From: Isoetes taiwanensis
Taxonomy: Eukaryota > Streptophyta > Lycopodiopsida > Isoetales > Isoetaceae
Reading direction: 5' to 3'
Length of the DNA stretch: 64,000 bases
Assembly: GCA_021234155.1 (NCBI GenBank)
Contig: JAJEKV010000025.1
Span: 5,437,310-5,501,309 of the forward strand
The position numbers and the translations under genes are program-made. The first letter of the stretch is position 1, and the number at the start of each line of letters is the position of its first letter. Below the pieces are notes generated by a model, which worked only from the letters and a program-made list of their open reading frames with translations, was not told where the DNA came from and did not search any database. Below, piece by piece: positions 2,171 through 48,062 of the stretch.

Positions 2171-5100
2171 GATTAAATATTTAGTTTACATTGAATGTAG
2201 TTAGTGTTGCCCCAGACTTGAAGCTTTAAGGAAACAAACAGATCAAGGGTCCGACGATCGGTGCGCCTATGAGTGCGTCGTTATTATGTCATTGATGTTT
2301 GTCACCGGTGATCATCAACAAATATTTTGAAGTCACCTTGACTTCTATTGTATCACCGTTTTTCGAATAATAAACAAATATCCCTCGGGCCTCGTTTGAA
2401 AATATCGATTACGGAGGCCATTATCAACGTTTTGATTTGGAAGGCCCTAAGACAAACTCGACAAAACATGAAACACTTATATTACAAAACAGATTGAACA
2501 AATCGATTGTGACATATAAAGTCGTGTCCTAAATAGTAATCGATACAGATCAAAAAGGCCAACCCAAAAGGCCATGCAAATATATGTATTAAAAGCATCT
2601 TTTTCCCCTCGCCTCCTAGTAGAATTCGTGATGTATAGGGAAGGACCCACTACCATATACATGCACCACCTTGTCATACCAGTTTAGGCGATCCCAAGGA
2701 AGTGAACCGTGAACCCTAAAACCAATGAGTTGTTGATTTAGCATCCCACAAGCCCAACCCAAATAAAAGGGCTCACATACAAGCAATTAAAAATTAGTTC
2801 TAGTAAATGGTTAATGTGGGGAAGGCTGGGATGCCTGATGCACACTAGTGTGGCTTAATCTGTCTCGGGACCCATAACTTAGGTTGATTGTTCATGGACC
2901 GCAACCGGAATCCACGAGCCCATCTTTCACAACCCACGTGAAACCATAGCTAATCATTGCTATCCCTTTGCAAAAATTTTCGTGAAACTAGCTAACTTAC
3001 TTAAGCAGTTAATAACATCGTGGAACTTCTATTATGATCACCCATCTACATTAGCGGAAAATCTAGCCCATTTTGTAGCCATAATCTGCGATCATCACTT
3101 GAATATGGTCTACATAAGCTCACACACAAACTTGTTTTACATCACATAAGTTTCTTAAGCATACGGCTACCGCAAGGCTAAGTTTCTGGCATCACTTGCA
3201 TATGGTCATACTGCTTTTAACTTGGGAGCAGAGTGTGTGGGTTTAGGGTTAATTAGAACAACATTAGAACTATTTATGATTCCATAGTTTTAAAATGCTC
3301 ATTGAATCTGCCTTTTGGCACTAGTTAGAGTATCAGCGGCGACCAAATGCACTAGTTTACAGCATCTCAAATGAATCCATAGCCTAGCGCGGCTAATGTG
3401 CTGCCTATATTGAAATCAAGGCACTGTCTACATTGTTTGGGCCAATCTCATAAGTGTTATGCTTAGGGTTATTTTGTAACACATGTGGAACTATTGATGC
3501 TCCATGCCTAGATTCAACGTAAGAACAATCTATGAACATTCTTACCAAAATTCAGTATGCTTGTAATGCTCGTTCGAGGCAAAGACATTAATGGCACCCT
3601 TACAACCGTCTTGAGTATATCGCCATTTTTCGCTACGATTTTCTGCTCCACCACCATCGGGCCTTTTTGTTCTTCCCATTCAGATCAGTCTCCGGCACCT
3701 TCCATCGACATGGCCAGGATTGCGGCTGACGCAGCCAGGAAGGCCGGGATTTTAAATCCTCCGGCCTCCACTCAGAAGAATAAGTACGCAAACGATCTTT
3801 GCCGTTAACCAAAGGAACGTCATCGAAGTCCGCTGTGCTGATCGACCCAGTGTTCTCGCCCCATGAGTTTCGGCAGACCATGCAAACCGATGGACTTTCA
3901 TTCCTCATGGCGTGCATGCCTCCCATCACCAGTCACAATATAATGTCCAGAGTTTGTTTTTGGCCTAGGAGCTCTGAGTTTTGGACTTTCAGCATCCAAC
4001 CTATGTTCCTCCATGGCAAAACTGTAGCAGTTTGTAAAGATAAAACTTCAAATTGATGGTTTTCCCAATAGTGCGATGTGTAATTCTTATGTCCAACCTG
4101 TACTTTGTCCATCTACTTACCAGGAACCATCTCTTTTCCTCGCAAGTCCCACTTAATAACGCCAGCTGGAAATACAAAACCAAAAAGAAGCTGCGAACCG
4201 ATGTACTCAAAACCACAGAGCAACCAAATCATAAACAAAACAAAACACATCTAATTCTGAAATGGACACCACTATCTTCTACCCATTCTAATGCCAAAGG
4301 ATCCCAAGATATGGTAACCGTGAGGCAACTTAGTCTAAAACTTCCCAAGTTCCTCTATGTTTCTGCAAGCTTTTCCACTCTCCCTCTCCTTTCTCCGATT
4401 TTGATCGATTCACCGTTGTAGTCATGCACCCTGCTTTTATGATCGGGCTAAATGAAGAAGCCGATTTTAAACTCCAAAGTCCAAACTGCTTCCATTGTTT
4501 TGGCGCTCAAAAGAAGATCGTTAACTTTCAAACTTGGCGGATGGGGTCTCATTCAAAGGCTCGCCTTCATTCCCTAAGTACCCTGGATCTACCTTCAGCC
4601 AGCCTCACTGGAGCCTCTTCCCGACCGCATGTTCAATAAGGGATAATCACCCCAGTGATCCCACTTTGGTGTTATGCCTCAATGGATCTTCATCGCATTC
4701 CCGAGCCTTTATGGTGTCCAAATACCCCTACTATTTGTCAGACCTCGACCGCTCGGGGACAATATGTTTCAAAAATGAACTACCAACTAGGGATTCAAAC
4801 TTGCCACTGCAAAATTAGATTCATTTAAACCTCCTATGGTTTTTGAGAAATGAATGTCTTTCCACTGCTATTCTCAAAGTAAACAAAACAGGATCAATGT
4901 TTACAGCCTAACCCTTGGTCTCACTCCTTGCTCTCTCCTCAAGTAAAAAGGCCTTTACCATAAATGTTTCTACTATCTTATAAAACCCTAACCGACTTTG
5001 CCCAGTACATGGAGCTGGGCGTAGGTCATCGAGGAGAAAATCTGATGAGGAGCAGATAGTTTCAGTTGAGTTATATGGAGATGAGAGAATTCATGAACAC

Positions 5101-9351: not shown

Positions 9352-9775
9352 CACGAAACCCTTCCGGGTTTAATGAAACCCTTCCTGGTTTAATGGAAAC
9401 CCCTGAAAGCCAGGGAAACCCTTCCTTCGACCATAAATTTCAAGGAAAATCCTGAAGGGGTTTCCACTAAAAACTTCTAAGGGTTTCCATGGAAAGCGGG
9501 AAGGGTTTCCATGATTGGAAAGGAAGGGTTTCATGGAAAGCCTGGAAGGGTTTCCACAAAAGTATTATTTTTTTAAATATTACACCGTGGAGCCTTTATG
9601 GCTCACGCTTCTTCACACGACGCCTCCTCGACGTTAGGCGACGTCCGTAAGTCGCAATGTCATTTCAAAATTTGTTCAAAATTGTTTTGGGTGGAAACCC
9701 TTCCCAATTTCCTTGCATGATGGAAATTGGGAAGGGTTTCCATAGGAGGAAGGGTTTCCACAATGGGGAAAACAG
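9352..9775. repeat. Cluster of GGAAACCCTTCC motifs in both orientations
   Basis: At least ten near-copies of GAAACCCTTCC or its complement GGAAGGGTTTC occur in about 420 bp. The first three (near 9353, 9375, 9408) are in one orientation. The next five (near 9455-9550) are inverted. Then one copy near 9694 and two inverted copies near 9731-9755 follow. The two orientations face each other, so the transcript or single strand could fold into long imperfect hairpins. The same motif forms a perfect palindrome at 12882-12916. I do not recognise the family. Confidence 0.75.
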
Positions 9776-9967
9776 GTTAGGTTTCCACATGAGGAGGAAA
9801 ATAGGTTAGGTTTTTCCATGCGCTTTAAACCTTCGATGGAGAGGTCGTTGAAGTTGCACTCTATTATGTTGCATCATGGCACTATGCTCTACATAATCTC
9901 TATTGCATAACCTTTGTCTTTGTTAAATATTCTTCCGTCAGACAATTAAAGACAAAAAAAAAAAAAG

Positions 9968-10686: not shown

Positions 10687-12880
10687 TAGCAGAGGAGAGA
10701 ACTTGTCGCTCTCCTCGGATCTGCGAGGAAGGGTTAAACCAATTCCATCCAACCTATAAAAGAAAATCATGTGAAGTGGTTAGTATGGATACTTTCCAAG
10801 TCATGTGCAAAAAGAAGAGAAATTAAAGGGTTTATTGTGATGTACCTGAGCAGCACTAGACGAGGCTCCATCAATGTAATCCTTAATAAAGAAACTATTT
10901 GCCAACAAGCGCATGGTCTGTGGAACGTGGCGCGTGGCATGATCCGCCTGGCTCCCTTAACTCCCGCTTACATTCCAGTATGAATAGATTACAAAAACCA
11001 TAAGCGTGTAATTTATTTGAAATACTTGGAGAAAGATCATATTACAAAGAAAACCCTAAACCCTAGCAAATTTTAAGCGCAATGACAACATACAAGAACT
11101 TCCAATCAGACAAATCATAATTGTAAATGAATTGGCTAGTTCACATTTAGTTTGTGATCGGCGGCGCTTAAGATCGCTCAAGGTAGCAATCTATTTAAGT
11201 CGATATAGAAGGCTCGCTTCATGCCCTTTTTTGGTTGCTTCTAAGCTTAATATGTTCAGCCCTTTTTATTTCGCTTAGAGATCACCAATTTAGAATTTTC
11301 TTATTGCCATGACTATTTACATGAGAGAAGAAATAGAGATGTAAAATTGCACTTGGAGTGCTTTGCATTAATATATAAACTTGTTACATGTAAAGTTTTG
11401 ATTTGATCGCCCCAAACCCAAGTGTTTCTAATATTTTTAATGGAAATAAAAACTTCGCCGAGGATTGATGATCTGCCCAATCGATAAATGCGCCCACCTT
11501 CAAGCATTCAAGATGAAAAGGATTCAAAATTTATTCGTTGGAATTAAGCTAATCTTGAAGGAATTAGATGCACTTACTTATCTCCCTAATTGCATCAAAA
11601 ATAGCTATGATGGACTAGATGGAGAAATTTGTCTAACTCGGCAAAGCTCCAAGTCAGTCCAAAGACACGCCCTCGTAAGATTTTAAGCCGCCCTACCCAA
11701 GGTGCCAACATCAAGCACTTTAAAAAGACATTATATATCAAATCTGCCTCCCAATATCAAACTTAAAACAAAACATTATAAATCGAGCATTCTAAATGTA
11801 TTTTACACAGAACACAAAAAAGCATTCTTAAATCGGATTGAAGGGTACAAGGGATCTTATACATTATCTAGAAATTCGTGAAGAGTAGATGAACAAAGAA
11901 GCATAATCCCCGCAAAAAGAGAAAAACAGAGAAACCAAGCAATAAAAAGCGTGTTTTATCAAGCATTTAATTCGGGAGGGAAAAAACAATGGGAAATCTC
12001 ATGTTCGTCAAAGATAATTGTCGCCTTCGCCTTGCTAAGAAAGGCTTCCCTTCCCTGTATTTCCACCGCCACTATGTTAGAATCCGTATGGTCTTGTTAA
12101 ATTTGTAGTAGAAGCCATTAACTTACTCCACCCACATGTAGAAATAGTGATAGAGCTTGCTCACCGGAGTTTGTTTTTGCAACCAAGGTGACAAAACTGT
12201 GGAGGCACGCATGCGCTTTTGTTAAAAAATTCACCCCTATTGAAAACAAATAACGAAGGAAACTCAAAATGTCAATTCTCAGAACTCCATTCAATTTTAT
12301 GCATGTACTCACAAAATTTTATCTACATAGAGGCATATGCTCTCTTACTTATTGGTTCTGATGTAACCCAATTGTTGCTTTCTTAAAGGCCCAAAGATTC
12401 CAAAAATTTTCATCCCACCCTACCCTTTAAGTGTCTCAGATATAGAAATTAAAACCGTGAATACAGATATCCAAATAGAGGTGAATAACTTAATTAATCT
12501 ATCCGTTCCGGTGATTGAATCCAAGTAGAAGGTAGAAAATTTCTTACCTTTTCAAGCCAAACCTAAAACAAGTGGGATTGATGCGCTCAAACTTGTGGAT
12601 TTCTTCAATTAATTAAACGCCTGAATCTTTTTTTCCTTGAATCGCAATGCATGCTAAACACTTCCTTGAATCCTTATAACCGAAACCTTCCTTAATCTTG
12701 AATCGCCAAAAAAAAATCCTAAAGCTTCTTCAAAATAGACGCTTCAAATCACGGAGAAGAGATCGAGAAAGAAAAATATCCTAAAAGCTTTCTTCAAAAA
12801 TAGACGCCAAATTTAATTCTAGTCATTAATTTCGACGGTGGATATCTTCACCCAAAAATTCTACTTTCTCTGAAACCCTT
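10687..12880. other. Spacer, no gene recognised
   Basis: About 2.2 kb of AT-rich sequence. All frames are under 75 codons with no domain. A CCCTAAACCCTA phrase near 11052 is only a short telomere-like word. No element ends or RNA genes were seen. Confidence 0.4.
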
Positions 12881-12881
12881 C

Positions 12882-12916
12882 CAATATGGAAACCCTTCCG
12901 AAGGGTTTCCATATTG
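12882..12916. repeat. Perfect 17-bp-arm palindrome on the GGAAACCCTTC motif
   Basis: CAATATGGAAACCCTTC (12882-12898) and its exact reverse complement (12900-12916) are separated by one base. The core is the motif clustered at 9352-9775, so the two loci belong to one repeat family. Confidence 0.85.
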
Positions 12917-13749
12917 AACCCCTGGCGGGTTCCACTAACTTATTTAATAACCCCAATCGGGGAGATAGTGGTGGAGCGAATCTGCTTACAGGAAGAGCTA
13001 GATTCATCTTTATCTTCGTATAAAAGGAGCAAAGAAGTTTTATCGAATTCAAAGTTAGAGTTGATGTCGTTGTTTATAACTTAGTAGATGGTGAGCGGAA
13101 TTGGTTTGCCGATGGAGGCTGTACTACCCACAACGATTCTCCTTTTTCTAACATCAATAGGATGTTGATCCTTGTTATTCTGGCCATGGCGCCGTGAGTA
13201 AATGTTCCACCTGCACCCATCCCAATAGGAGGAGCCTTGAATCGGCACTCTTATTCATCGGGCCAAGGGAGGTTGAGGGCCAAGCCTTTCTTCGGATTAT
13301 GGTCCAGGGTTGCTTGAAGTTTTGAACTGTGCCGAAACTGGTACAATAGTTTCAACTGTGGTGCGTTTCAATCTTAAAATCAATGAAGATCGAAGCTCTG
13401 CCATTTGTGGAAGCGGAAGAGCTTTTGGGGACCAGACAGCTCATCAACACACCCATTCTGCTGCTCTTTTTATAAGCTTCTTTGGGTGTTGGAAAAGGTT
13501 CAGAAATGCCTTCTGGGCAGAATATATTGTTCAAGTAGATTGTGATTAACGGCAACAGACCCATAAGGCTTCTCAAATTTCCGACACATTGTAGCCTTTT
13601 CTTTGCTGTTCATGAAATTTCCTTTTTAAATTGTATTCGCTCTTTCTAATTCTAGAATCAGGGAAGATGTTAGAGATTGTGGATTTTGTGAAGGTATTGA
13701 TGGCAAACAACGCACCTATGATGACAGAAAATTGATGCACAGTGAAAAC

Positions 13750-32290: not shown

Positions 32291-33702
32291 CATGGATATG
32301 CGAGAACAACTATGCCCTTGGACACACACCTAACATGTATATATCTTTCATGATGTATATTTGTATAGTTTGATTGCATTCTTATTACTGTTACAGTTTT
32401 TCCCTCGAAACCCTTTGGGACAGGGGTCTTTTAATCCAGACAGTAATAAGCATGTTGCGCTTCTTCATTAGGTCCCATAGGCCGATTGTCTCTATGGACA
32501 ATAAAAACCATTCTAATTCTTTTCTTGTAAACTAGTCTTTATCTTCAATCTCAACCCAATCATTAACAATCACTTGGCCATGCCGAAAGCCTGAATGACC
32601 TAAATCCTCCCCCTTTTCCCCTTGTTTTTGTGGATTCTGTAGCTTTGTACCCATTTAATCTACCTCAATGAAGAATCAATCAATTCTTCTTTTAGACTTG
32701 TTTATTGAGCTTATACTTCTTTTGCAAAGCTATGCCTATATCCAAAGTCTGGTTTTACAAACAATGAAATTGCAATTGTTAGACAAGTAGCTCACACACC
32801 ACCTTTGTTTTTGCTTTACCGTCAACAAACCTGCAGAGCTAATCGGAGAAGCCCCCTCCCGGTGTTATTAAAAGAAAATAAAAAAAATTGTTGTTGTGGT
32901 TGTTTATTGATTCCTTTTTTTTTTTTTTACTTTTGGCCAAAAGCCAAAAAGACCACGTCTCCCATAAACAACCACAAGGGTATAAGCATTAATTGTGGCA
33001 AGAGTCTAGTTTCAAATACGTAAACTAAATGGATGCCAAATTGGGCAAACTTGCACATTCTCGATGTCAAAATTGTTCTTTCGTTCACGTTTTCTCAATT
33101 TGATTCGATGCTCTCCCTATTCTAAACAAACAACCTTGCTTTGATTTCACATCACCTAGATTTTTGGCGACTATGGATGCCGACATGCTAATTTGCCTTT
33201 TGATTGTAATCAAAGGTAAAATATCTAGTCCAGATCTTTAGAATACCTGGAATATCAAATAGTGAACCTTATAACCTCCAATTTGACCACATAATTTAAC
33301 CTCCTTCCTATATTGGCTGGTTAAAAAAAGAACAAGATGTCGACGCATCAGAGGGTTGCCTTCTTTGTTTGCAGAGGTTATTATTTGTTCTCACTTCCCT
33401 ATGAGGATTTGGAAGATCATTTGATGCCAACGTCTATTGTATGCTTATGACTTTTCTTACACGTACATGCTCATTTTCTTTGTCAAAATTTCAAATTCAT
33501 CATTACCTGAGATGATTTTGAAGATGTTTGCCAAGATTTAAGATCTATAACCATTTGAATAACATTTTGGTATGTAATATTATATTTGACAAAAGTTTCC
33601 TTTTCAGTACTTTGGTTGTTTTATGCATTTGATCATCTAAGTACTTTAGTTGTTTTATGCATTAGATCATCTAATTAACTAGCTGCAAAATAGTAGCTTG
33701 GC
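32291..33702. other. AT-rich spacer with one tandem duplication
   Basis: No supported gene. At 33609-33674 a 33-bp unit containing TACTTTAGTTGTTTTATGCATT is tandemly duplicated. Two poly-T runs lie near 32918-32930. Confidence 0.4.
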
Positions 33703-33727
33703 AAGTCGTATTTAATTAAAGTGGGAC
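33703..33727 (+). repeat. Left copy of a 25-bp perfect inverted repeat
   Basis: AAGTCGTATTTAATTAAAGT followed by GGGAC. The exact reverse complement lies at 45942-45966, 12.2 kb away. Both copies are preceded on the outer side by TGGCA, with a 2-base difference in spacing. They bracket the CpG-rich palindrome block and the DUF7869-like remnant. Confidence 0.85.
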
Positions 33728-34622
33728 TCATTCCATTCCCATTTTTTTTCGGAACCCGGTTAATTTACATAAAAAGTAGCACCCCGACCCGAAAACTATC
33801 CTTAATTCGAATTTTTGAATAAAACTCTGAATCCGAAGTTAGGCCAGTTGTCTTTCCTGTTTTCCCGTTCGCGAGTCGAGAACAAAAACAATGCAACTGA
33901 AACAAAGGAAATTCATTAAAGTTTGAAACCAAAGATGATGTTGAAAAAGAATTTTTATTAATAAATTGAACGATACAATGTATTTTTACATCTGACGCAG
34001 AGACCATGGCGGTCTTGGTTGCCACTACAGCTTACATCATCTTGGTAGGTGGTCCACCTTAGGGGATTAACTTGTGGCGCTTCTTCATGCCGTCAGAAGC
34101 CTTGGGGCAACCTCAAGAGTGTGGAATGCCTCACGTGGAGGTGCCTCTCTGAGCTACGCCGCCCGACACCACCCGACTTCTCCACTCGCCTCCCGCACCT
34201 TTCATCGAATATGCTCCTTCCCCAACCTCCGTGGATGTTATGCAATGCTTGCAATATGCCTTGAGCTTCCCGGACTTTCTCTTTGTTCTTCGCTCGTTTT
34301 TATCCCTGTGGTGTAGCGAGCAACCTCTCGATTAAAGCAATCTTGTCCCAAAGGCGGCAAGAGTGTAGCGTGGATCGGATCTCGTGCCGAACGGTATTTC
34401 TTCGCCTTGAGCTGGATCAGTATTCGCCTGGAGCGGTCTGCTCGTGATGCCCGAGCGGGATGTGGCCGGTGTCGGATCTGTGCCTAAACCACCTGGAGCA
34501 AGGAGAGTATGATTAACAATTACGGTGCCATTAGTCAAAACGAAGAAAAGAATGTTGAAATCAAATTACAACGGAGAACATTCATTCCATACAACTCCAT
34601 CCAATGACGTGGGAAGTAGTGT

Positions 34623-34877
34623 CTTTCTCGACTCACGAGTCGAGAAAGGCCCATAAAAGTCAAAGTACAACCATTCTCATTAGAATATGGTTGCATCCAA
34701 TCAAACACTAAGCATACAAATGCTTTTGTCAACGAGACAATAAGATGCCTTTCTCGACTCATGCGAGTCGAGAAAGGCCCAGAAACCCAATGTACAAGCA
34801 TTATCATAATAGATTGTACAAGCATTTCATCAACACGACAAGTATGCCTTTCTCGACTCGTGAGTCGAGAAAGGCAT
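34623..34877. repeat. Three TCGACTC palindromes
   Basis: Three short hairpins: CTTTCTCGACTC-AC-GAGTCGAGAAAG at 34623-34648 (12-bp arms), a 14-bp-arm version at 34747-34778 and a 16-bp-arm version at 34844-34877. They are separated by about 100 bp of unrelated sequence. They lie just downstream of the damaged minus-strand gene. Confidence 0.9.
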
Positions 34878-35149
34878 CGAAAACTCAATATACAAGTATA
34901 TTCATTACAAAATGGTCAATACATGTGTTCACGTTCGATTACAATATTCACACAATTTGACTATCTGAAAGCAGGGGTCACTCTTCTTGTTCACCAAAGT
35001 ATTTGTCGTCCATAGCTTTCATGATCGGCTTGCTCTCGGATCGGGTTCCGTGAGGCTCCTGGATAGTTCGTAGCACATCGGGCGACAAGAATGGCAAAGA
35101 GGGATTCCGCCAAGATGTGACAGTCCAAGGACAACCACCTATCCGCCTC

Positions 35150-35660
35150 ATATTTCTTCAGTCGATATGGCTTAGCAATGATTGTATTTTGCGCGCTATG
35201 ATAGCACTTGTAGGCGGAGTCGCCTATGATCGGCGGTTGTGTTTGCCATAGTCCCGAATTGCTCATAAACCCCCGCCCAAAATTTTTTTCACCATTATAG
35301 GCTTCCCTTTGTGATGGTCGGATCGAGGTCCTTCACATGCTCGACCCTTTCGCTTCCCCAAACGAACTTGAACTTCAAAACTGAAATGCCGAGAACACCA
35401 AGAACATTGACAATATTTTTCTTTGCCATACAAGACCATATGCCCACTTCAATCCCCGCCTGCACCATTCAATAATTTCCTTAGCTCTAGGCCCTGAATA
35501 CACTATTTTATGCTCGCTTTCATTGGGATCATGAGGTGTTAATCTCGGGGACGCCTTTTGTCGTGGTATACCGCAGCCTAATACTCCATTGACGCCAAAT
35601 ATTACAAGCTTGGTGGGACCACCGATCCCGCTTGGAGTTTGGCTCACCATATTTCCGGTT
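35150..35660 (-). other. FCP1/NLI-type HAD domain segment
   Basis: Two separate open pieces give adjoining parts of one domain. GPTKLVIFGVNGVL, then SGPRAKEIIEWCRRGLK (recalling RPGAREFLEWC of FCP1-type phosphatases), lies at 35640-35440. GDSAYKCYHSAQNTIIAKPY (the DDSPYK...P.N motif region) lies at 35230-35170. The nucleophile position (DxN/DxD) reads GVN, and the first Asp of DDS reads G, so catalysis is unlikely as written. The two pieces are in different frames. Confidence 0.6.
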
Positions 35661-35801
35661 CATCGGGATCCAAATGGGATCATTATCTTTTCGTGTTCTT
35701 TTCCGGGTGTGAGCGTTGTCTTGTTCGATTGTCTTTGTCCTTTTCATTCTCCTCCTCGCGACGTGAACCGCTGCCCAATGACAATGATCCGAGTCGTTGA
35801 G

Positions 35802-35949
35802 CTGGAATTCTCAAAATGATGACATCCGCCGAAGGGAACGAGTTTTCTCGACTCAAGCGAGTCGAGAATGAAAAGAAAAAGGTATTGAAAGGAACGAGTT
35901 TTCTCGACTCATGAAGTCGAGAAACACCGATAGAGCAAAGTAAACTCAC
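35802..35949 (-). other. Predicted 148-bp intron containing two palindromes
   Basis: Minus-strand donor GAG|GTGAGTTT at 35949 and acceptor AATTCCAG at 35802. The palindromes TTCTCGACTC-AAGC-GAGTCGAGAA (35845-35868) and TTTCTCGACT...AGTCGAGAAA (35900-35924) lie inside, each introduced by GGAACGAGT. The hairpin pair makes up about half of the intron. Confidence 0.55.
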
Positions 35950-37585
35950 CTCAATCTCGTGTTTTCAATAATGTTTTCGCAAAGATTCGTCCAAACCTTC
36001 GACATCCTCGCCTCCGCCGCCTTTGTCTCCCCGCCCTCGCCGCCTTTATCGCTTCCATTTGTCTTCCTCCCCTTGAAATGCTCATGAAGCGTATCCGTGT
36101 ATGACCAATGGTTTCAACCATGTCCTTATTTCCAACCACGGATATAGGTTTCATTCCAAACAAAGATAGCCCCCGAGAGAACAGCCATTCATGTACCACT
36201 CGCATACAATTTGATCTTCCCACCAAGTCGGGTTATGAAGTACTTGATAACTCTTGGCCGGATAGGAATTCTATGTATAGGACCGGTCGCACCATCTTTG
36301 GCTTTACCTTGTCCATCGATGGAACATCCTCCATAAACCCTGCCCCCTTCCGTGGTTCCATCCGCTCTTGAGAGATCATGAACTTGTCGAGATAATGATG
36401 CTCGCTAGACCACCACTTATCCAGGTCGACCACGATCTTGAAATCAAAACCAAAACTATGTTGGCAAAGCTTGGTGCCTTCGGGTAGCCAAGTCTGCACT
36501 CATGATCAAGTTCGTATATGGAGTGCATGATCTTGTTGGTGAAGTTAATATCACCGCCCATTGGGAGACAAAGAAGCTTGTTTGATTGCCCGCATGCAAA
36601 AAGACAAGGAAACCGAAAAGTATCCGTGTCGGTCATGTCCGCATTAACGCCTTGTACCACCGCTCTATGTTAGCTTTGTCATAAAAAGGGTGGGGTCTTC
36701 GATCATATTGATGGCAAATAGTGCCACGGGTCCAAAAAAGCCTGCACCACCAAATCCCTTGTGTCCCAAAGTAACCAAAATGGGGAGCTATCGTCGCCTT
36801 TAAATGGGACCACCCTCAATCCAAGCTTCCTTTTCGCACTGCCATAGCACGCCGTGGAAAGGAAGGGTTTTGACGTTACGCTTGAGCTTGGTGTTGATGT
36901 AGGGTTGACATAGACGGTTCAATTCCTTCATGTCTTCCTCATCAAGGGCAGCCTTTTCCTTGTAATAATCAAAATCATGGTATTCATTAGATGCAACGCT
37001 GCGTAACTCCGCGATGCCTTCTTCTAACGCACGCTGTCGCTTTAGGACTGTGGCATAATCCTTTGCGCCCCGCATTTTAGAACTCCCCGGTCTTCCTTAG
37101 CAGGATTGTTCCCTCCAAGATTTTGCCTTGTAGATCAAGCGCTTTGTCCGTGAGGCCCTCAGTATCCTCTTCATGAACCGCTTGTCAAACAACTTGGGGT
37201 CCGCCCGCTTGGAAATTCTCCATTGCCGCCCTTCAAATTTTGCCTCTTGTCCATTGAGCCCATATGTCGGGCCATTTCTCCCAGCACCGCCTCGCTAAGA
37301 ATGAGGTCATATTGGTCTGAGAGAGACTCCCCGCCTTTCCTTGGTGTTCTCTTCTTCTTCTCCTCTTCTTCCTCCTCTCCCTCGCCATCTTCCTGTCCCT
37401 CCAAAGAAACATATCCGCATAGTTTCTCAAAGGTCTTCCACTTATCCGAGGGAGCCCTGTTTCCTTTAGGACGCCGAGGACAACCCAATGCTTTCCAATC
37501 GCTGCCTAGCGCAGTATGATCCGTCGATAATAAAATGCATTCGCATAATGTACCAATGTCGAGCATGAAAGTATCTACAAACACC

Positions 37586-38028
37586 CTAATAAACAAGAAT
37601 AGTAGCCGGGTTTTCGACTCATGAGTCGAGAAAGTCCCTTGAATGTCTAATTTTCTTTTTACTGGTTTTTTCGACCATGAAGTCGAAAAGCTCTACATCC
37701 TTTGATTTTTTTCATATACCCTGGCTTTCGACTTCGCCAGTCGAGAAACCCCAAAGATAATCGGGTAAATGTTAGATGGCGGGGCTTTTCTCGACTCGCG
37801 AAGTCGAAAAGTCCCTTGAATGTCTAATTTTCTTTTATCAAGCAGGGTTTTCTCGACTCGCGAAGTCGAAAAGCTCCGCATCCTTTGATTTTCTCAGGTT
37901 ATTCGGCTTTCGACTCGCGAGTCGAAACCCCAAAGGATAATCGGCAAATGTTAGGATGGCGTATTTTCGACCGCGAGTCGAATGGAAAGATTCGCAGAGA
38001 GTTATTTACCCACGTGAGCCGCACTCAC
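37586..38028 (-). other. Predicted 443-bp intron packed with palindromes
   Basis: Minus-strand donor AATAGCG|GTGAGTGC at 38028 and acceptor GTTTATTAG at 37586. Exon-like frames lie on both sides (ARPALAQRENTIA upstream, VFVDTFMLDIGTLCE downstream). Almost the whole interval, 37611-37983, is a tandem array carrying seven TCGACTC palindromes. Confidence 0.55.
37611..37983. repeat. 177-bp tandem repeat, two units, each with three palindromes
   Basis: Unit 1 is about 37611-37786 and unit 2 about 37787-37963; a partial third palindrome follows. Each unit has the same order: palindrome, GTCCCTTGAATGTCTAATTT, palindrome, AAGCTC...CATCCTTTGATTTT, palindrome, CCCCAAAGATAATCGG, ATGTTAG-ATGGCG. The phrase GTCCCTTGAATG begins at 37634 and 37811, giving the period of 177. 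The palindrome arms vary (TTTTCGACTC, CTTTCGACTTC, TTTTCTCGACTC) while arm complementarity is mostly kept. Confidence 0.88.
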
Positions 38029-39293
38029 CGCTATTGTGTTCTCGCGTTGGGCTAATGCCGGCCGGGCTTCGTTCTTTGGCGTCTCCAGCCGAAAGAACTC
38101 GCACTCGCTTGGCATATCTATCCTTGATCCTTTTTGCGGCACCTCCTTCTCCGCTCTGCAATACTTGAGCCGCCCACCTTTGAATGCTGACCGCCTACAA
38201 CCCGTAACCTGACTTCTTTTCCCTTCGGATCTTCCTCGGACTTCCAAATTGAACAACTCACCGCCGATCTGCTAAAAAGGTATGACATCCGCAGGCATTG
38301 GATCTGCAACATGATGTCGCACCATCGTTCGTAATCTCCAAAGATGTGTGCCGGATTAAATTCCACAATGGTTGAACAAGACGGCATCTCCCGTGCAAAC
38401 CTTCAAATTGCCTAATGTCCAAAGCCCGCGGCTTTGTGTGATATTCCCAACGGATAATACCGAGCTAGACGCCCCATTTTCTCGTGGCCCCTCTCTCGGA
38501 AATCCTGATCCGATCATCCGATCGAGGTTTGGGGACTCGACCATATCTTTGTCTCCTTCGTCATCCGATTCCTCCCGTGTGGTGTCATCATCCCCATCTT
38601 TGTTTTTGGTGGACTTTTTGTGTATGAACCACAACTTCATTCCCCACCGCAGAGTGTTGTAGAGTCTTCAAAGACAAAAGAGAAGTGAAGCTCCCCGTAT
38701 TGAAATGCTTTTCCCCGACTGAAATCTCCATACCAAGCTCCCCGGATGTTAGGGTTCCGCCTCCTTCATCCCTTCCATCCTTCCACCCAAGGTTCTAACA
38801 ATTTAAAGGCGCCGCCTTTTTTCTAAGTGCCCTTAGCCTTGCTCATGGAAGAGTGAGAATAATTTGAAACCGCTAATTTTTTGTGCGATAGAACTTACTC
38901 TTTTCCTCGGGCAATCCTCGACATGTAGTGTTAAATGCTTCAATCCGGGCGCAGAGATCGGAGAGCACAACACCGATTTTCTTGTACTTGTCTCCTGAGC
39001 TCTTCTTGTCCCTTTGGTGTAGAAACAGATCTTTCTCTTCCCACTTGTCGATACCTCGACATACCACCAAGAATCTGCCAAGTTTCAAGAAGCTCGCTCT
39101 CCAAATCCCTCGATGACAAAGAATGGAGTTCGCCGATCACCAAAGAGTCCGAGGTGAATGCCGCAAGAAGAAAGGATGGATCGCTTAAGGTATTCCGACA
39201 AAAGAAAACCTCGTGAGCTCACCCGGGTTTGTTTGTCTTCTTCTTGCCGCCGGTAGAAGCATCCCTCCGGCGCCGCTTCTTGGACGGAGTCAT

Positions 39294-40195
39294 GTCTATA
39301 TGCCCTCTCATCCTCTTTCGCACCCTCTCAGAAATTAAGTTTCCTCCGCTGGTTGTGAGTTTTAGGACTGCATGTAAAAAGATCGGGCGTGTTCTTTAGT
39401 TTGAACTTAAGGACATGCAATCATTTATGAAAAAAGAAGGCTAAAGGGTACAAAGACGGTCGGCTTTTAGCCCGCCCAAACACTATTTCAAATTTAATCA
39501 CATCAAGGGACTAAGTGAGCGGAGAGCGTAGTTTATCTTCCCCGCGCATTGGGGACCTCGAAGTTCGAGGGGGAGCATCGACCGTTAGCGACTTCCTAAT
39601 GGCGCCACGCGTAAGAAGCTAAACAAAGCTTTGCATATGTGTTTTTCCCCGACCGCCCCTATTGCAAGCGCTTGATTTGATCGATGAGCACGGAGCTAAG
39701 GTAGGAAGCGAGAGGAGCCGCCACACCTGAACTCTACATCGCGGGCATGGAACGGGATACGCGAGAATCGCAAAGGATACAAGTATTAGATGCTAATACA
39801 CTCTTGAAGAGACCGGCGTAAGAAGCAAAGACTCTAGGTGAGGTCATGGATCCGTGATACAAAGGGCTCAAGGAATTACCGCGAAGAGGTGAGTTTCAGA
39901 GATGCCTATGTTATTTCGCTTGTAGAACATGCCGTATGTGTTTAAATAATGGAACCGCCGATAAGCTCGACGGATTCATTGTTTCTTTTGTCGAGCATTT
40001 TTCAACTTCGATAGATGATTTACTCCTAGGGTTGAGAGATGCCTCGGCAAGGAAACAATGGATCGGGGGTAAAGAACAGCCCGCGCTTTAGGTGTGTTTT
40101 TCATGGACTGCTTACTTGGAATGTTGTACATAGATCGTGCTAGGACTAAGGCCCGTGAGATGCGGTTCAAATGCATCCTCTTGTAGTTAGTTTGA
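39294..40195. other. CpG-rich spacer upstream of the damaged gene
   Basis: About 900 bp between the start of the minus-strand gene and the tandem repeat array. It could hold the gene's promoter, but I see no convincing TATA box. Frames are short and lack domains. Confidence 0.35.
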
Positions 40196-40199
40196 GGGG

Positions 40200-41340
40200 C
40201 CACCACTGTCCGGAACCACTCTTCGCAATATTCGAGGAAGATGGTTCAAGGAGAGTGGCTCGCATGTGCTAGAGGCACTTGGGACTAAAAACAGAGAATA
40301 GAAAGTGCAAGCATTTGTAGAGAATGCAAGCCTTGGCTTCCTCTCTCAGGTTTCCCCGTGGTTAGTTGTAGAGGCCTCCCACCGGCCCCGAGCCCCTCCC
40401 CTTCGCAATATTCGACGGGGCATGGTTCAAGGAGAGTGACTCGACCGGGTCGAGGCCACCGCTACCGCATTACCGTGAGAATTGGTCGGTTATGATTCTC
40501 GACTTGCGTAGTCGAAATGCTTGGCTTCGTTTCGATTTTCACCGGCAAGTCGAAATGCCTTGGCCATCCGTAACTCCGCTAGTACACATGGAGTGCCTTG
40601 GTAAGGCATTCCCTACTCGCGAGCCGAGAATGCATACAAGAAGCTCGTGGTTTCCCCCGGTTATAGAGGCCTCCACCCAATCAGAGCCCATCCCCTTTCG
40701 CAATATTCGACGTAAGAAGGTTCAAGGAGATGGTTCTTGATTGGGTAGAGGCCATCATGACCAATACACGTGAGAATTGGGTTGTTAGTTGGCCCCCGCA
40801 GACAAATAAAAAACACTTCCTCTCGCAATGTCCGAGGAAGATAGAAGGAGAGTGTTTAAGACTGCCCCGCAGCCAGCTCTAGAGTGCACTAGAGCTCAAG
40901 GCTTTCACCTCACGAAAGTCGGCAGCAGCTGAACTCGTGCGGGGGTTAGTCGCCGAGGCCTCCACCTAATCGTGAGCCCATCCCCTTCGCAATATTCGGT
41001 TTTAAGATGGTTCAAGGAGACGGGCCTTGATTGGGTAGAGGCCATCGCGTACCACAATAATGAGAATTGGTTATATCAGCTGGCCTCAGACAAAGGCAAA
41101 CCACTTCCCTCGCAATGTCCGAGGAAGATAGAAGGAGAGTGGTTGAGATCGCTCGCAGCCAGCTCTAGAGTGCACTAGAGTTCGCCGACTCACGAAGTCG
41201 AGAAAGCGCCAGCACCTTCGCTGGTTAAGTCGCCGAGGTGCTCCACCCGGGCCGGAGCCAGCCCCTTCGCAATATTCATGAGCATGGTTCGGAGAGAGTG
41301 GCTCGCATCGGGTGGGAGGCACCTCGCGATCGCACAAAGG
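40200..41340. repeat. About 290-bp tandem repeats with palindrome remnants
   Basis: The phrase CTTCGCAATATTCG followed by ATGGTTCAAGGAGA begins near 40222, 40401, 40696, 40985 and 41265, giving spacings of 179, 295, 289 and 280. Two of the longer units also share CTCGCAATGTCCGAGGAAGA (near 40823 and 41112), GCAGCCAGCTCTAGAGTGCA (near 40868 and 41156) and GAGAATTGG. Degraded TCGACTC palindromes occur between units (near 40497, 40605, 41180). It is a diverged satellite-like or spacer-like array without coding potential. Confidence 0.8.
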
Positions 41341-42520
41341 GCCATTAAGTATTACATTCTCACTCACGAAGTCGGTGAAGGCCGCAGCAGGTTCTAAAGA
41401 ATGTGAAGACATTGGGTAGTGCGGTAATTCGGTCAAGAAGTCGAGATCCCTCACTCCGCCAACAAAGTGTACACTCCTCTTCGCTTCGCTCACCTCGCCG
41501 AAGTCGAGAAGAAGGCCCGTATTTCCCCGGATCTGGCAAGTGAAGTATTCTCAACTCGCCACTCCTTCGCATGTCTCCCGCAGTTGGATTTGCCGTGAGT
41601 TAGAAATGGAGATTCTCGTGAAGCAATTCCTATTCCGAAGTTCTTGCCGAGAGAAAGACATTCCTAGTTATTTTCTCATAATGCTCGCAATATCTTACTT
41701 CCTAACACCGCCTCTCGATGATTTCTATCTCTGCTGCTTGCTACTACTCTAACCACTATTCTCACTTGTGCCCGCATAATGTATTCAATTCAACCACAAG
41801 CAAGAAAAAGATAACAAAAACAAAAACAATACAAAGATTAATGAGATTAATGAAAAAACAGAGAACAATGGAGAACAAAGATGAGAACAAAGGAGAACAA
41901 AGAAGATTAAAAAGGGTATGATATTACAAAAACATACCGAAGATTTGTCGGATGAGGAGGAGGCTTCCGAGTTCGCCTCCATGTGGGTATAGTCGCTGAC
42001 AAAGCGTGAATAAGGATTTTGTCTGGTCAGAAATTGTATCGTGGATTAATAAGAGCCTCTAACAAATGTAATATAAGTAAAAATGCACTAAAGGACTTAC
42101 GTAAAAACTAAAAAGCAAAGACTAAAAAGGCCTCACTTTCTTCTCTCAGCGGTAACGCCACGCCGAAACAATGAATCACATGGCAGAACTTCGGCGCCGA
42201 AGCCCCCCGATCCGGTCGACCAAGCCGCCGTCATAAGATGGCCTTGGAATCGCTTCTGCCGATCGATCGCCTCGATCCGTAAAGCTGGCGCTAAGGAAAC
42301 AGGGAGGAAGAGTGATCGAGAAAACAGGGGAGGAAGAATGGTCTGGGGAGAGGAAGAGGGTGCGCTTACTTCGGCCGCACCCTCAACCTCGTAAAAGTGC
42401 AATAATAAAACCATTGTCACGCAGGGCCATGCCCTCCATGACGGGCAAAGTTGATTAGCCGACATGGCCACGGTTTTCACCTCAAGAGGCCCACGCGGCC
42501 ATGACAAAATATGAAAGGGT
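41341..42520. other. CpG-rich spacer, no gene recognised
   Basis: It contains two more partial palindromes (near 41360-41385 and 41485-41510). A purine-rich stretch of GAGAACAAAG-like words lies at 41810-41910. The minus frame at 42133-42507 (124 codons) lacks recognisable motifs. CpG density falls sharply after about 42.5 kb. Confidence 0.35.
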
Positions 42521-42529
42521 AGGTTATAT

Positions 42530-42780
42530 GTTTATATATGTTATCTTATGTATTTAATAAGGTTTCAATGGTTGTATTTAATATGGTTTCAATGGTTGTA
42601 TTTAATATGGTTTCAATGGTTACAATGTTTACATATGGTTTAGAATGAGTGTGGTTGTATGCTTTAATATGGTTATATGATTTTAGTTAATATGGTTGTA
42701 TGATTTTAGTTAATATGGTTGTATGATTTAATATGATTATATTTAATATGTTTGTATGGTTTTATATGGTTCATATGGTC
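42530..42780. repeat. AT-rich short tandem repeats
   Basis: AATATGGTTTCAATGGTTGT-type units of about 26 bp repeat three times (42550-42625). Related ATGGTTGTATGATTTTAGTT units follow (42660-42740). Simple-sequence expansion. Confidence 0.85.
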
Positions 42781-43059
42781 ATATTTGTGGTGTTTGGGGC
42801 TATATGGTTTTAATGTGAGCTTTTTCATTCGTGGAGCATGTGAGATGAGTAAAATGGAGCCGTGGAATTCCAAAGGAGGCCATTGCCCTAGGCTCCAATG
42901 GAGGAAGATGGGTTGCCTTTTGTTGCACCTTGCAAACTGCATCGGTATTTTGCAAGAGGGCATAATAACCGCAGCTGATCCATTTGATAGTGTGAATGAT
43001 GAGAGGTCGGGAGATGAACATCTTGAGTTGGTATCAGAAGCTTCTTATCGAAGTTGATA

Positions 43060-45775
43060 CTATCATGTCCTGTGGAAGCTCTAGTGATTGCATTGTGTGC
43101 TCGTGGTCAGCTGGAGTCCCAAGCTCGCTTGAGATGGCCAATTAGATTTATTACACACAAGAATGGTGATACTCTAGAATGCCCCTCAATCAACTACACA
43201 CCCCAAGGCCCACCCAAGGCCATGTGGAAGATTTGGTGGTCGATGAGCATCCTTTGATCACAAGGAAGAGACGCTTATGTCTTTCATAAAAGGCACCAAA
43301 AGGTGCCCAAGAGGCCTAGAAGTGACAAATATTTAGAAAGGATGGAAAGTATGGCACCAACCAAAGAAAACCCGAGGCAATTAGGGGACAAGAGTGTTGC
43401 AACCTAGATTGCACAAAGGCATTACAATGTGGATGACCTCGCGGGATAAGGTCCCAATACATTGGACAAATTTCAAAAAGATAGGATTAATTTCATTTAC
43501 TCCTTGTGTAGGAATTCCAGCTATGATGAAAACACAGGACGACTGCTATATCAATTGAGGGGAATGAAGGTATGTATGAGAGCATTGAGATGGATTCTTG
43601 GGGTGAGCAAGTCTTCATTTTACGTGATATCGGGAGCAGTGTTAGAAAAGGGCACACTTTGTTCCAACATGGTAATGCACTCACTTTGAAACCTAGAGCA
43701 AATACTCTAAAGGCCATTGCAGCCTTCGAGAGCTTTGTGAGATACATGTCTCAATCTATGCCCCACAAGTCGAGCAGAACGAGCACACGGTGTGCGAGTG
43801 GTGCAAAAGAGTGTTGCCACAACACTATATCCAAAAGGAGTGCCTTTAAGGAGGTCAACTCCATCCTAGAAACCACTGGAGGTAGGCCTCTTTCTCAATC
43901 ACATTTCAGCAAGTTATGGAGCACTCACTTCTGGGACGGAGTGTCCTACAACACATGCCATTCTCAAAGTGCAACACTTGCATTCAACTCAAGGATACAC
44001 TTGCATCAACCGCAATAGAGAAAGAAAGAATGGCAATTAGGGAGCAATTTGCAGATCACCAAAGGGACCAAATATCATGTAGACAGTTGTATTGGCAAAG
44101 GGAGAACATTTTCTCGAGATGCAGCCGGACAAATTTTTGTGTATAATTCATGATAAGATGGACCAACACAAGACTTTCTTGCCAAAGCTAGATCCTTTAC
44201 CCAAGCGTTGTCAAAACGCTTTTCGATGAAAGTAAGTCCGGCGGGTGTATTAACACATGGTCATGGAACTGAAACATATGGTCATTTTGTGCTTGATCTA
44301 TGGAGAGATGATCCAAACTTCCATGTGAGCTCTATTTTCAAGTGCCCGAGAACACTAGAGAAAGGATCGATAGAAGGGAGGAGGTATTCCCCTTCAAAGA
44401 CCCATTTTGAGGCTTTGATGGATGATCAACCGCTTTGTTACCAAAGGCGTATAAAAAAGCTCACATCCAAGGTGTCTAGTGAATCAAGGAGGACTTGGGA
44501 TGATTTCCCCTTACTTGAGAAATCAACTGCCTGAGGAGCTATGTGTTCCAGGCTGGACAACCGCTGGAAAGAAAACAAGAATAGATGGATGTTTGGGGCA
44601 ATGTCATACTTGGACAGCTAGGGGGAGTATTCAAAGTTGTGAAAGTGGGATTCATGATGGTTGGGCATACGCATGATGATATAGATGGATTCTTTGGAAC
44701 TTTCTCCACCAAGCTCAAGAGAGAAAAACGACCACTCTCCCCTCCCCGAACTAATGGATGTGTTTGAGAGTCGCATTGACCCCAACCCAATGGCTTTCTT
44801 GATGGATGAGGTTGCAGATTGGAAATCATTTGTAGAAGGATACTTGCTAGATGGCAAGGACCAGTTGACAGGACACACAAAGCCACTTCAATTCAAGTTT
44901 TGGGTTAGGGATGGAATACCAATCATGCAATATAAGTGGAGACCGTGTGACAAGTTGTGGATGCCTCGTACAAGGTATCGAAGTTGTGGCAAAGGGTGCT
45001 TTAGCAAGTGAAGTTCTCATTCCTAAAGGGCAGCCAAAACCACTACCTCCCTTCAAGACAACAAAGACTCTAGCCAACCGGGTGAAGGGCATCAAGGATT
45101 ACATAACGACCGGGATGATGTTCGAAATGGAAAGCACACCTCCACTCTTAAGAAAAATCAAATGGACTCCCTAATCAAGTACTGGGAGAAAGTTGTGACA
45201 TGCTTAGAAACTGAACAGCCATGTGGGAGGGAGCTAAGAGACGGGTTCTTGCCAGAGTCAAGATGGGAGGGTTCTCAAGGTGCAAGCACGTCTAAGAATG
45301 CTCACTTGGGTCCCAACAAGGGTTCCAAGTGGTTTGTGGGAAGTAAGGCCTCAAAGCCGGCGGTTTGATCTTCCCCGAAAGGGGATCCCTTTGAGGACAT
45401 CAAGGAAGGATACTTTGTGCTAGTAAGGCCTCGATGATGAGGACTGTCCAATATGGTTAGGGGTGGCACTCTCTCGATGTGACCACCACTATGCCCGATG
45501 GAGAGGAGTTAAGGCCCGGATTCCAAATTCAATATTGGGAGCCCATTGGGAGGCACAAGAAGGGCAACTTGAAGGAGCAATACAATCGACTGGGGGAGAA
45601 GAAGTGGAGGGCAATTATGTCACCCTCAAAGGAGGGAATTGGTGGAGTGTGTGGTATGGTCATATCCAAGTTCTCACATTGCAAAAGACAACACACACAA
45701 GATCCCAAGAAAGGAGATGGACAAGGCCATGAGCAACCTCCATGCTATATCATTGTATGAGGGTGCATAATATTG
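43060..45775 (+). pseudogene. Decayed DUF7869-like transposon-associated gene
   Basis: Plus-strand fragments in several frames line up with a family I know as DUF7869-containing proteins: large, multicopy, probably transposon-borne, biochemistry unknown. In order: an HTH-like GMKVCMRALRWILGVSKSSF (43.57-43.62 kb); FSKCNTCIQLKDTL (near 43.95 kb) followed by a charged helix; IIHDKMDQHKTFLPKL (44142-44190); GVLTHGHGTETYGHFVLDLW (near 44.25-44.30 kb); VGHTHDDIDGFFGTFS (near 44660-44707); and a C-terminal piece PGFQIQYWEPIGRHKK (45.52-45.57 kb). The HDxMDQ and GHTHDDID motifs look like metal-binding residues of an RNase H-like fold, by inference. At least five frame changes and stops make it non-functional as read. 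Its 3' end is followed by the right copy of the 25-bp inverted repeat. Confidence 0.68.
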
Positions 45776-45941
45776 AGAAGTTTGAAAACTTTCTCAACTA
45801 GTGGTTTGTAAAATTTATGAGGAAAACAAGTAACCCAATTCTATGTGTGTCATGTGTAATTCTATTCAAGCAATCAATTCAGAAATTTCTTTTATGGTGT
45901 GTGAGTCCCATTTTCAGTCCGAGTCCCAAAATTCAAGATTT

Positions 45942-45966
45942 GTCCCACTTTAATTAAATACGACTT
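45942..45966 (-). repeat. Right copy of a 25-bp perfect inverted repeat
   Basis: Exact reverse complement of 33703-33727. On the outer side both copies continue as TGGCA. No target duplication was found beyond it. Confidence 0.85.
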
Positions 45967-48062
45967 TTGCCATTTCTCCACCCTTTTATATGGTCTTTCA
46001 TTGTATCGAACTGCCCAACAATACTTTCACACATATCCAAAAGACGCATCATAGAACTTACAGAAGGTGCAGATTCTGGCATTGGCTAATTGGACCTCAT
46101 AACAATAATTGTTGTTATTGTTACTGCTGCACACAAGGTCGCCTGCGCATAATGAATTTTGCAATGCTAAATTTGAATAATAAAATGGATATCCTAAAGC
46201 AGGCCAATGACATCTTTGTATTTGGATTTTGACCTTGCTAAGTCACAACAAAAACACCAAGATTTACAAAAGGCATTGGCCTGCTCTATCAGATTCGCCT
46301 CAACTCTTATGTAATTATCTATACAAGAAGTTTATCGCGGCGGCCTTGGGTATTGCTTAATAAGGAATGTGTGATGATTCGAGTTGAATGAATTGAATGT
46401 AGAGGGTATGAACTTGTGTCATTGCATTGAGTTCTCTGCTCCTAAGGTAGATGTATGTTATAAGTTATCTCAATGCATAACAATCTAAGGAACAATTCAA
46501 CAAATCTATATGCAATGTTCTAAAGGGAAAGACTATTTATACAATGTCGGTTTAAACTAGAGTATTTTTTGAACTCAAGTATGCACTAGTAGATTGCATA
46601 GTTAGAAACTTGAAAGAAAGAGGTCGGTTCTTTGATTGTCGAGAATGGAAGCACCATTGCATTGGCTCTGGCCCCTCTCCTAAATGGGCCACCAACATTA
46701 GGTAGCAAGATAACACACAATATAAAAGAGGGCAATTAAACAAACGACAATTACACAACAACAACATGGAGAGAGAGGTGTGCAAAAGCATAGAGTCTAT
46801 GGTGAATGTTTTTGAGATTTATTGACCAACCATCTTCAAAGGTAATTTGAAAAGAAATTAATTCCTACATAAAAGCCATGTAATTCCCAAAGTTATGTTT
46901 AAATAAATGCTTTAGGTAGATGACATGGCAGGAAACAATTGGGTGGGCCAATTTCTTCAAGAGCCTACGTGACGGTTCAGGTCCGAGGGAGCTTAATCTG
47001 ATCAAGTTCAAGGCTTAGGTTTTGGAAGACCCACAAATAGCGCCGATCTGGCGATTTTGGCCCAATGGCTTCCTCTGGAGAATTTAGTAGAAAAATCAAG
47101 TAGCGATCGAGCTAGATGAATAAGCTGCTATGGCCACAAATGTGAAGCCAGAAATTCTCTCATTTTTTTTGTTGAACAGGAGGCAGGGACCTATGGCAAT
47201 AGCAAGAGGCAGGGAGCTATGGCAAGAGGCAGGTTGCTCAATGTGACCTCATCATGGATCTTGATGCTGGCAGAATTTGAAGATTGTGCATTGCCTCTGG
47301 CACCAAAATCTACTGAAATATCATTTGATCTATGCATTAAGCTGAAGCCAGGACCTTGATCTGCGTGATTTCCTTGCCGAAACGATCTGTTGGAACCAAA
47401 TCCAGAAATGAATTGCCCATTTTTTGGGCACCTCTTTGGAGTGCGTGGCGATCAGTGATTTTTTTATTTTATTTTTTTTTTCAAACATGCTATTTTTTGC
47501 CCTCCGAAACACGGAATATCCTAAAAATTAGATGTGTTGCTATTAAAGTTAAAAGGCATCTTGCCTATAAGAATTACATGAGTTAGAAAATAACATATTG
47601 TACTTGTCTCTATGTTAGTTTATACAATTATTTTTTCACTCTTTACACATCTTAACCAATTGCAACTCAAACTAGCCGTATTTATTTTGTTTATTTGCCC
47701 CTAAGTTTTCCAAGAGGATGTGTGTAATCATTTCACATTTTTTTGAAAGTGTTGAATAAGTTGCAACTTTTCTTTTATACTAATTTTTTCATAGACAAAT
47801 AAAGAAACTTACTTCTGATTTTTAGATAGATAGATGATTAGCTTATGGAGCACTATCCCAACCACTGTACAAAGCTAAAGTGGGTCTCTCCCCTACCAAC
47901 TTTACAATGATACATGGCCACTTGCACAACCTGACCTTTGGTATGGCGGTGACCTTTTGGTATGGCAGTTAGGATCCACAGAGAGCCCAAGCATTGTTAA
48001 CTTTTGGTTTTGCATTATTGTTGGACAAAGAATTCTATTGATACAAGTAGATATTATATGAA
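45967..48062. other. AT-rich spacer
   Basis: 2.1 kb without a supported gene. Frames are under 81 codons, with no recognisable domain or RNA gene. The only repetition noted is AGGCAGGGAGCTATGGCAA near 47180-47230. Confidence 0.4.

Follow-up and report, generated by a model that had tools for sequence, protein, structure and literature searches.

The window, by which we mean the whole stretch of 64,000 nucleotides of Isoetes taiwanensis DNA that was analysed, holds an entire DNA transposon of 12,264 bp (12.26 kb) at 33703..45966, delimited by a left boundary that its copies have in common and by 25-bp inverted repeats at both ends. The left terminal inverted repeat, AAGTCGTATTTAATTAAAGTGGGAC, lies on the plus strand at 33703..33727, and the right one, its reverse complement, at 45942..45966 on the minus strand; the repeat recurs exactly throughout the genome, with 2,217 exact occurrences (1,102 + 1,115) in the 1,658,258,908 bases and 1,110 contigs searched. 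Just outside the ends, the target-site duplication reads TGGC at 33699..33702 and TTGC at 45967-45970, with three of the four bases matching. In all six of the other copies with both ends read the 4-bp duplication is perfect (ATTG, ATAT, TAAA, GTAA, AAGG and ATTA). Among 20 copies fetched around the best matches to intron B of the gene described below, the left boundary of the element corresponds to 33702 or 33703 in 18, and apart from L015, which has no match left of 34097, all copies extend to the boundary. Since terminal inverted repeats occur together with target duplications of a fixed 4 bp, the element is a cut-and-paste DNA transposon (class II, TIR order), and the suggestion of the sequence-only reading that the gene at this place belongs to a transposon is borne out by both features. 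The element is large and abundant in Isoetes taiwanensis; genome searches with introns A and B gave 687 and 702 first-look candidates respectively, of which 40 each were scored.

Genes of the transposon

The minus-strand gene of the element has three exons. Exon 1 (38014..39293, start codon at 39293 as read from the sequence) is an open frame of 399 aa in copy L009, exon 2 (35950..37574) is seen in copies as overlapping open pieces of 200-292 aa, and exon 3 (34978..35810) runs to the stop at 34978 and encodes, as the C-terminal part, a NIF/FCP1-like phosphatase domain (Pfam PF03031, E 9.1e-11 in a single-copy reading of L016); a comparison of exon 3 with the PDB gave nothing matching at E 0.1. 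In the window copy the reading frames of this gene are broken and its own minus-strand pieces yield no Pfam match over the cut-off; this copy is too altered, and cleaner single copies were therefore used for the Pfam scans. Exon 1 also carries a VVDGQH motif (window 38118-38402, clean copy L009) with weak matches to DGQHR and DUF6551, at E 0.11 each.

The plus-strand gene, with approximate limits 42850..45757, contains the Pfam domain DUF7869, matched at E 2e-37 in copy L064 and 1.1e-23 in copy L062; in the window copy the match (E 7.7e-4) stays under the Pfam cut-off. DNA coding for DUF7869 is extremely abundant genome-wide, with 9,903 first-look candidates and at least 150 over the cut-off (150 of the 150 scored), many of the scored ones with long open frames. 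Abundant as it is here, the domain is named in no paper of the literature searched. Between the two genes, at 40343-41340, lies a longer self-repeating block whose copy number and order differ among elements. In addition, two ends of such a transposon enclose a fragment of a fasciclin domain (L061:7227-7610, E 4.3e-8), which may come from a host gene that was captured.

Introns A and B and the noise among copies

Two introns interrupt the minus-strand gene. Intron A lies at 35811..35949 on the minus strand, with its donor at 35949 and its acceptor at the window equivalent of about 35811, and holds two palindromes. Intron B lies at about 37575..38013 on the same strand and holds up to seven, arranged as a tandem (P a P b P c) x 2 + P. 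The sequence-only reading had placed these introns at 35802-35949 and 37586-38028 with a strong GTGAGT donor each; both introns are supported, while three of these limits move and only one of the two donors stands. For intron A, clean copies show the donor GAG/GTGAGT (a slash marks the splice point) and the acceptor TTTCAG/GG, and the GTGAGT at 35949 was found in all 21 aligned copies. For intron B, the frame-keeping donor in clean copies is TAC/GTAAGG (window equivalent 38013) and the acceptor TTTGTAG/AT (37575); at 38028 the clean copies read GCGAGT, the 'GTGAGT' of the window is absent from the other aligned copies, and it was probably made by a sequencing error.

Read without splicing, clean copies run into a stop no more than three codons past donor B and immediately past donor A, and splicing brings the frame back into the next exon (...NTIAASASY/ILSCSDIGTL... 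for intron B and ...ENPRLR/EFQLNDSGSLSLG... for intron A). These GT-AG sites together with the restored frame support the prediction, drawn from the clean copies, that both introns behave as spliceosomal introns. Nine of the 21 copies, a set that excludes the window, have exact splice sites for intron B, with stops a short way upstream in three of the nine (L017, L020 and L022). Intron A has exact sites in 5 of 21 copies, one of which (L016) has an upstream stop; the window is again excluded, its acceptor reading GAG. The distance between the intron B sites in L017 is 1,650 bp because of a duplication in that copy, in which the duplicated stretch spans intron B through exon 1.

The absence of exact sites from many copies is attributed to sequence noise. 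For window 33700-40400 and copies L009-L028, substitutions at the C/G of CG and CHG sites amount to 12-16%, versus 3.7% at other C/G, and deletions at these sites to 3.2-4.9%, versus 1.7-2.5% elsewhere (19 aligned copies in both cases). Deamination was considered as the source of the copy differences and rejected, because it gives transitions only, yet deletions are raised as well as transversions, which affect 5.0% of cells at the C of CG and 1.5% at other C. The v1 assembly of Isoetes taiwanensis is described in PMC8566536 as made from R9.4.1 nanopore reads, and we infer that the differences are more probably nanopore basecalling error at methylated cytosines than real mutation. The imperfect palindromes, the broken frames and the odd donor of the window may therefore be artefacts, as may unusual splice sites and signs of decay in the repeats of this assembly generally.

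The palindromes and their places in the element

The palindromes of the element derive from one 24-bp sequence, TTTCTCGACTCGCGAGTCGAGAAA, which occurs exactly at 2,686 places in the genome, against 0 for a reversed-pattern control. The window copy contains no exact one, every copy there being slightly altered. The palindromes predicted in both introns were found at 35844-35868 and 35900-35924 in intron A and at 37611..37989 in intron B (starts 37611, 37726, 37787, 37849, 37908 and 37964, with a degenerate one at 37667). They make up roughly 40% of each intron, in agreement with the statement that they fill much of it, and the tandemly duplicated unit of three palindromes, noticed earlier as 177 bp long, indeed measures 177 bp in the window (37611 to 37788) and 181 bp in the clean copy L016. 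Outside the introns, three palindromes lie past the stop codon of the minus-strand gene at 34623..34876 (920-1174 bp from the left end), a weak one near the left end at 33861..33882 (score 16.5 of 26), and others between the genes at 40496..41206 (40496, 40609 and 41181 in the window, with more in clean copies). At score 16 of 26 the window has 15 sites, and the 9.4-9.6 kb fetched for each of the clean copies L011, L016, L019 and L025 have 16, 19, 18 and 19 distinct sites, palindromes or near-copies. Other strong palindromes and repeats of the window, at 9479-9813 and 12880-12918, have a different core (GGAAACCC...GGGTTTCC).

Counted by region over the left 6.7 kb of 21 copies at score 13, there are 74 palindromes in the 1,275-bp left part, 42 in intron A (two in every copy), 134 in intron B (4-7 per copy, with seven in 10 of 21) and 0 in the 1.1 kb upstream; a backwards-read control on the 141,628 bp of these copies gave 0 palindrome-like matches. 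The exons show a single match across the 21 copies, in L017, where it stems from the duplication that takes in the end of intron B, so the coding pieces on both sides are free of palindromes as had been noted. The right-hand 3.3-3.8 kb of L062-L064, with the plus-strand gene, also contain 0. In these copies the palindromes are kept to the non-coding parts of the element, that is, introns, the DNA past the stop codon, the DNA near the left end and that between the genes. Thus the earlier restriction to introns holds as far as the exons are concerned and fails for these other places. Two further ideas of the sequence-only reading are not supported, the insertion of hairpins specifically into introns and a transposon as the maker of its introns. 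The palindrome is a repeat of the transposon's non-coding DNA in general, present also past the stop codon, between the genes, near the left end and in short elements. The splice sites lie tens of bases beyond the palindrome edges, and of the 20 listed palindromes with an exact left end in range, 13 lie 882-1218 bp from that end, where the element has no intron.

Folding of the introns bears on whether the hairpins act in RNA, shaping the introns and the 3' region to the benefit of splicing or stability or as a source of small RNAs. For intron B of L016 the folding energy is -200.7 kcal/mol, versus -111.9 for shuffles (z -15.6), which also fits a structural role, and complementary two-sided changes of pairs among near-copies number 42 of 60 with 30.1 expected, a weak excess and not proof. 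However, strong folding is inevitable for a perfect palindrome, the sequence is fixed and not the pairing alone, the arms show no excess of covariation beyond the core except at one flank position, and palindromes are also present between the genes and in short elements with little else in common with this one. We regard an RNA role as rather improbable.

Relatives bear on another reading, in which the palindrome itself would be a hairpin that moves or makes copies, favours non-coding DNA and lets introns grow in the manner of introners. L065 (76-81% identical) has the same intron B boundaries, with 3-4 palindromes versus 6-7 and with unrelated spacers, which means that palindromes vary inside an older intron; the proposed comparison of paralogs for a varying palindrome number thus turned out positive. 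In L066 (71-77%) two palindromes are kept in intron A and the left trio is partly decayed. Counted among sites with at most 6 mismatches, the cores differ at 0-2 of 24 bases in L065 and at 0-3 in L066, a conservation that is biased upward since an exact palindrome was the means by which both were found. The changing number and spacers in intron B favour a mobile hairpin, and so do the varied surroundings of exact palindromes, with 61 distinct flanks among 114 core matches. On the other hand, around single palindromes neither target duplications nor empty sites were seen, intron A has the same two palindromes in 21 of 21 copies, the offsets from the left end are conserved, and the palindromes sit inside the splice sites and not at them, in one transposon family. 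Accordingly, we give this reading little credence.

The palindrome is tied to the ends of one transposon family. Among 50 of the 2,686 exact places, listed as the first in contig order and thus not at random (clusters on contigs C1-C113), 22 of 34 clusters are situated inside an exact end that faces inward and is no more than 13 kb away, and none of the 34 is near one that faces outward; chance would give 1.7% per end set. The other 12 clusters have no exact end in range, although diverged ends are seen at two of them, C28 and C35:449076. An exact left-type end is present within 13 kb of 20 of the 50 listed palindromes, and all 20 fall at three offsets, 882-1218 bp (13), 2155-2262 bp (3) and 3947-4259 bp (4), which agree with the left trio (920-1174), intron A (2142-2221) and intron B (3908-4279) of the window. 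The terminal repeat and the palindrome share only AGTCG; a link through this motif was discarded as too short, since it could be chance.

The same tie extends to short elements. A sample of 20 exact-palindrome places, again taken from the start of the contig order, comprises 8 that match the element over 447-828 bp and 12 with at most 80 bp in common with it; three of these 12 were widened, and all three revealed an element end, with L060 showing both ends, 3.9 kb apart. Neighbouring exact ends are 3.5-5.8 kb apart in 11 of 28 pairs, 11.0-12.7 kb in 9 and farther in 8, and three of the 13 palindromes at the offset of about 1 kb lie in elements with exact ends 3.9-4.6 kb apart (C1, C6 and C53). 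Judged from their size, the short elements of about 4 kb would be non-autonomous. They share little with the present element beyond the ends, yet the palindrome stays about 1 kb from the left one. This kept offset, together with near-identical cores among unrelated spacers, argues against the view that the palindrome has no function and was spread by slippage and kept uniform by gene conversion in a selfish element. The tandem duplication in intron B and the repeated block at 40343-41340 are what such a process would leave, and we consider this view unlikely.

A putative binding-site array and its comparison with known systems

As a whole, we think it fairly probable that this DNA transposon with two genes carries the palindromes as a repeated cis element specific to its family, with the palindromes serving as putative protein-binding sites. 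The first part of this explanation, a transposon repeat hosted in ordinary introns, is very probably right, with introns A and B as ordinary spliceosomal introns that would have existed before and come to host the sites. The function is more tentative: a site for a transposon-encoded protein has somewhat less than an even chance, and it is the most likely role, ahead in descending order of no function, a role in RNA and a mobile hairpin. The symmetric 24-bp sequence would be a candidate site for a homodimeric protein encoded by the transposon, either the transposase or the minus-strand accessory protein, and the arrays may help assemble or regulate the transposon, like the subterminal motif arrays of En/Spm-type elements. 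Coding selection would exclude the sites from exons, so that they would accumulate in introns, between the genes and in 3' DNA, where they could multiply through tandem duplication. On this site model the introns and spacers of the transposon give space to dozens of identical palindromic sites, which its short derivatives also carry at a constant distance from one end, and the model gives a clear prediction on which protein binds the palindromes.

A more specific version seems highly improbable to us, namely a partition-like system in which the DGQH/ParB-like region of exon 1 binds the roughly 16-19 palindromes as a centromere-like array and the transcription machinery of the host is the target of the FCP1-like phosphatase; if true, the array would mark, pair or compact the transposon. 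The likeness to ParB-parS, an idea of working only, consists in the binding of one protein to a palindrome present in many copies and in the VVDGQH motif, and exon 1 gave no significant ParB match (E 0.1-0.11, far below curated cut-offs).

Introners resemble the present case in that repeated DNA makes up a large share of introns, and some are reported with 4-bp target duplications, while none is reported in land plants in the account of PMC9860276. However, an introner is the intron itself and supplies or recruits the splice sites at its edges, whereas here the splice sites are the gene's own, the palindromes lie inside them, and palindromes are also found outside introns. By these features the palindromes are not introners.

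CACTA (En/Spm) elements are large plant DNA transposons with two functions, whose ends carry a short motif in many copies, to which the element protein TNPA binds. They start with CACTA or CACTG and make a 3-bp target duplication. The present element is likewise a large plant DNA transposon with many copies of a short motif. However, its ends read AAGTCG..., its target duplication is of 4 bp, and its motif is a 24-bp perfect palindrome that occurs in introns too; moreover, Pfam reported no CACTA transposase domain in the pieces scanned. The element thus falls outside CACTA. Superfamilies of the Sola type make a 4-bp target duplication, and it is with Sola1-type and other superfamilies of this kind that the element agrees in the length of its target duplication.
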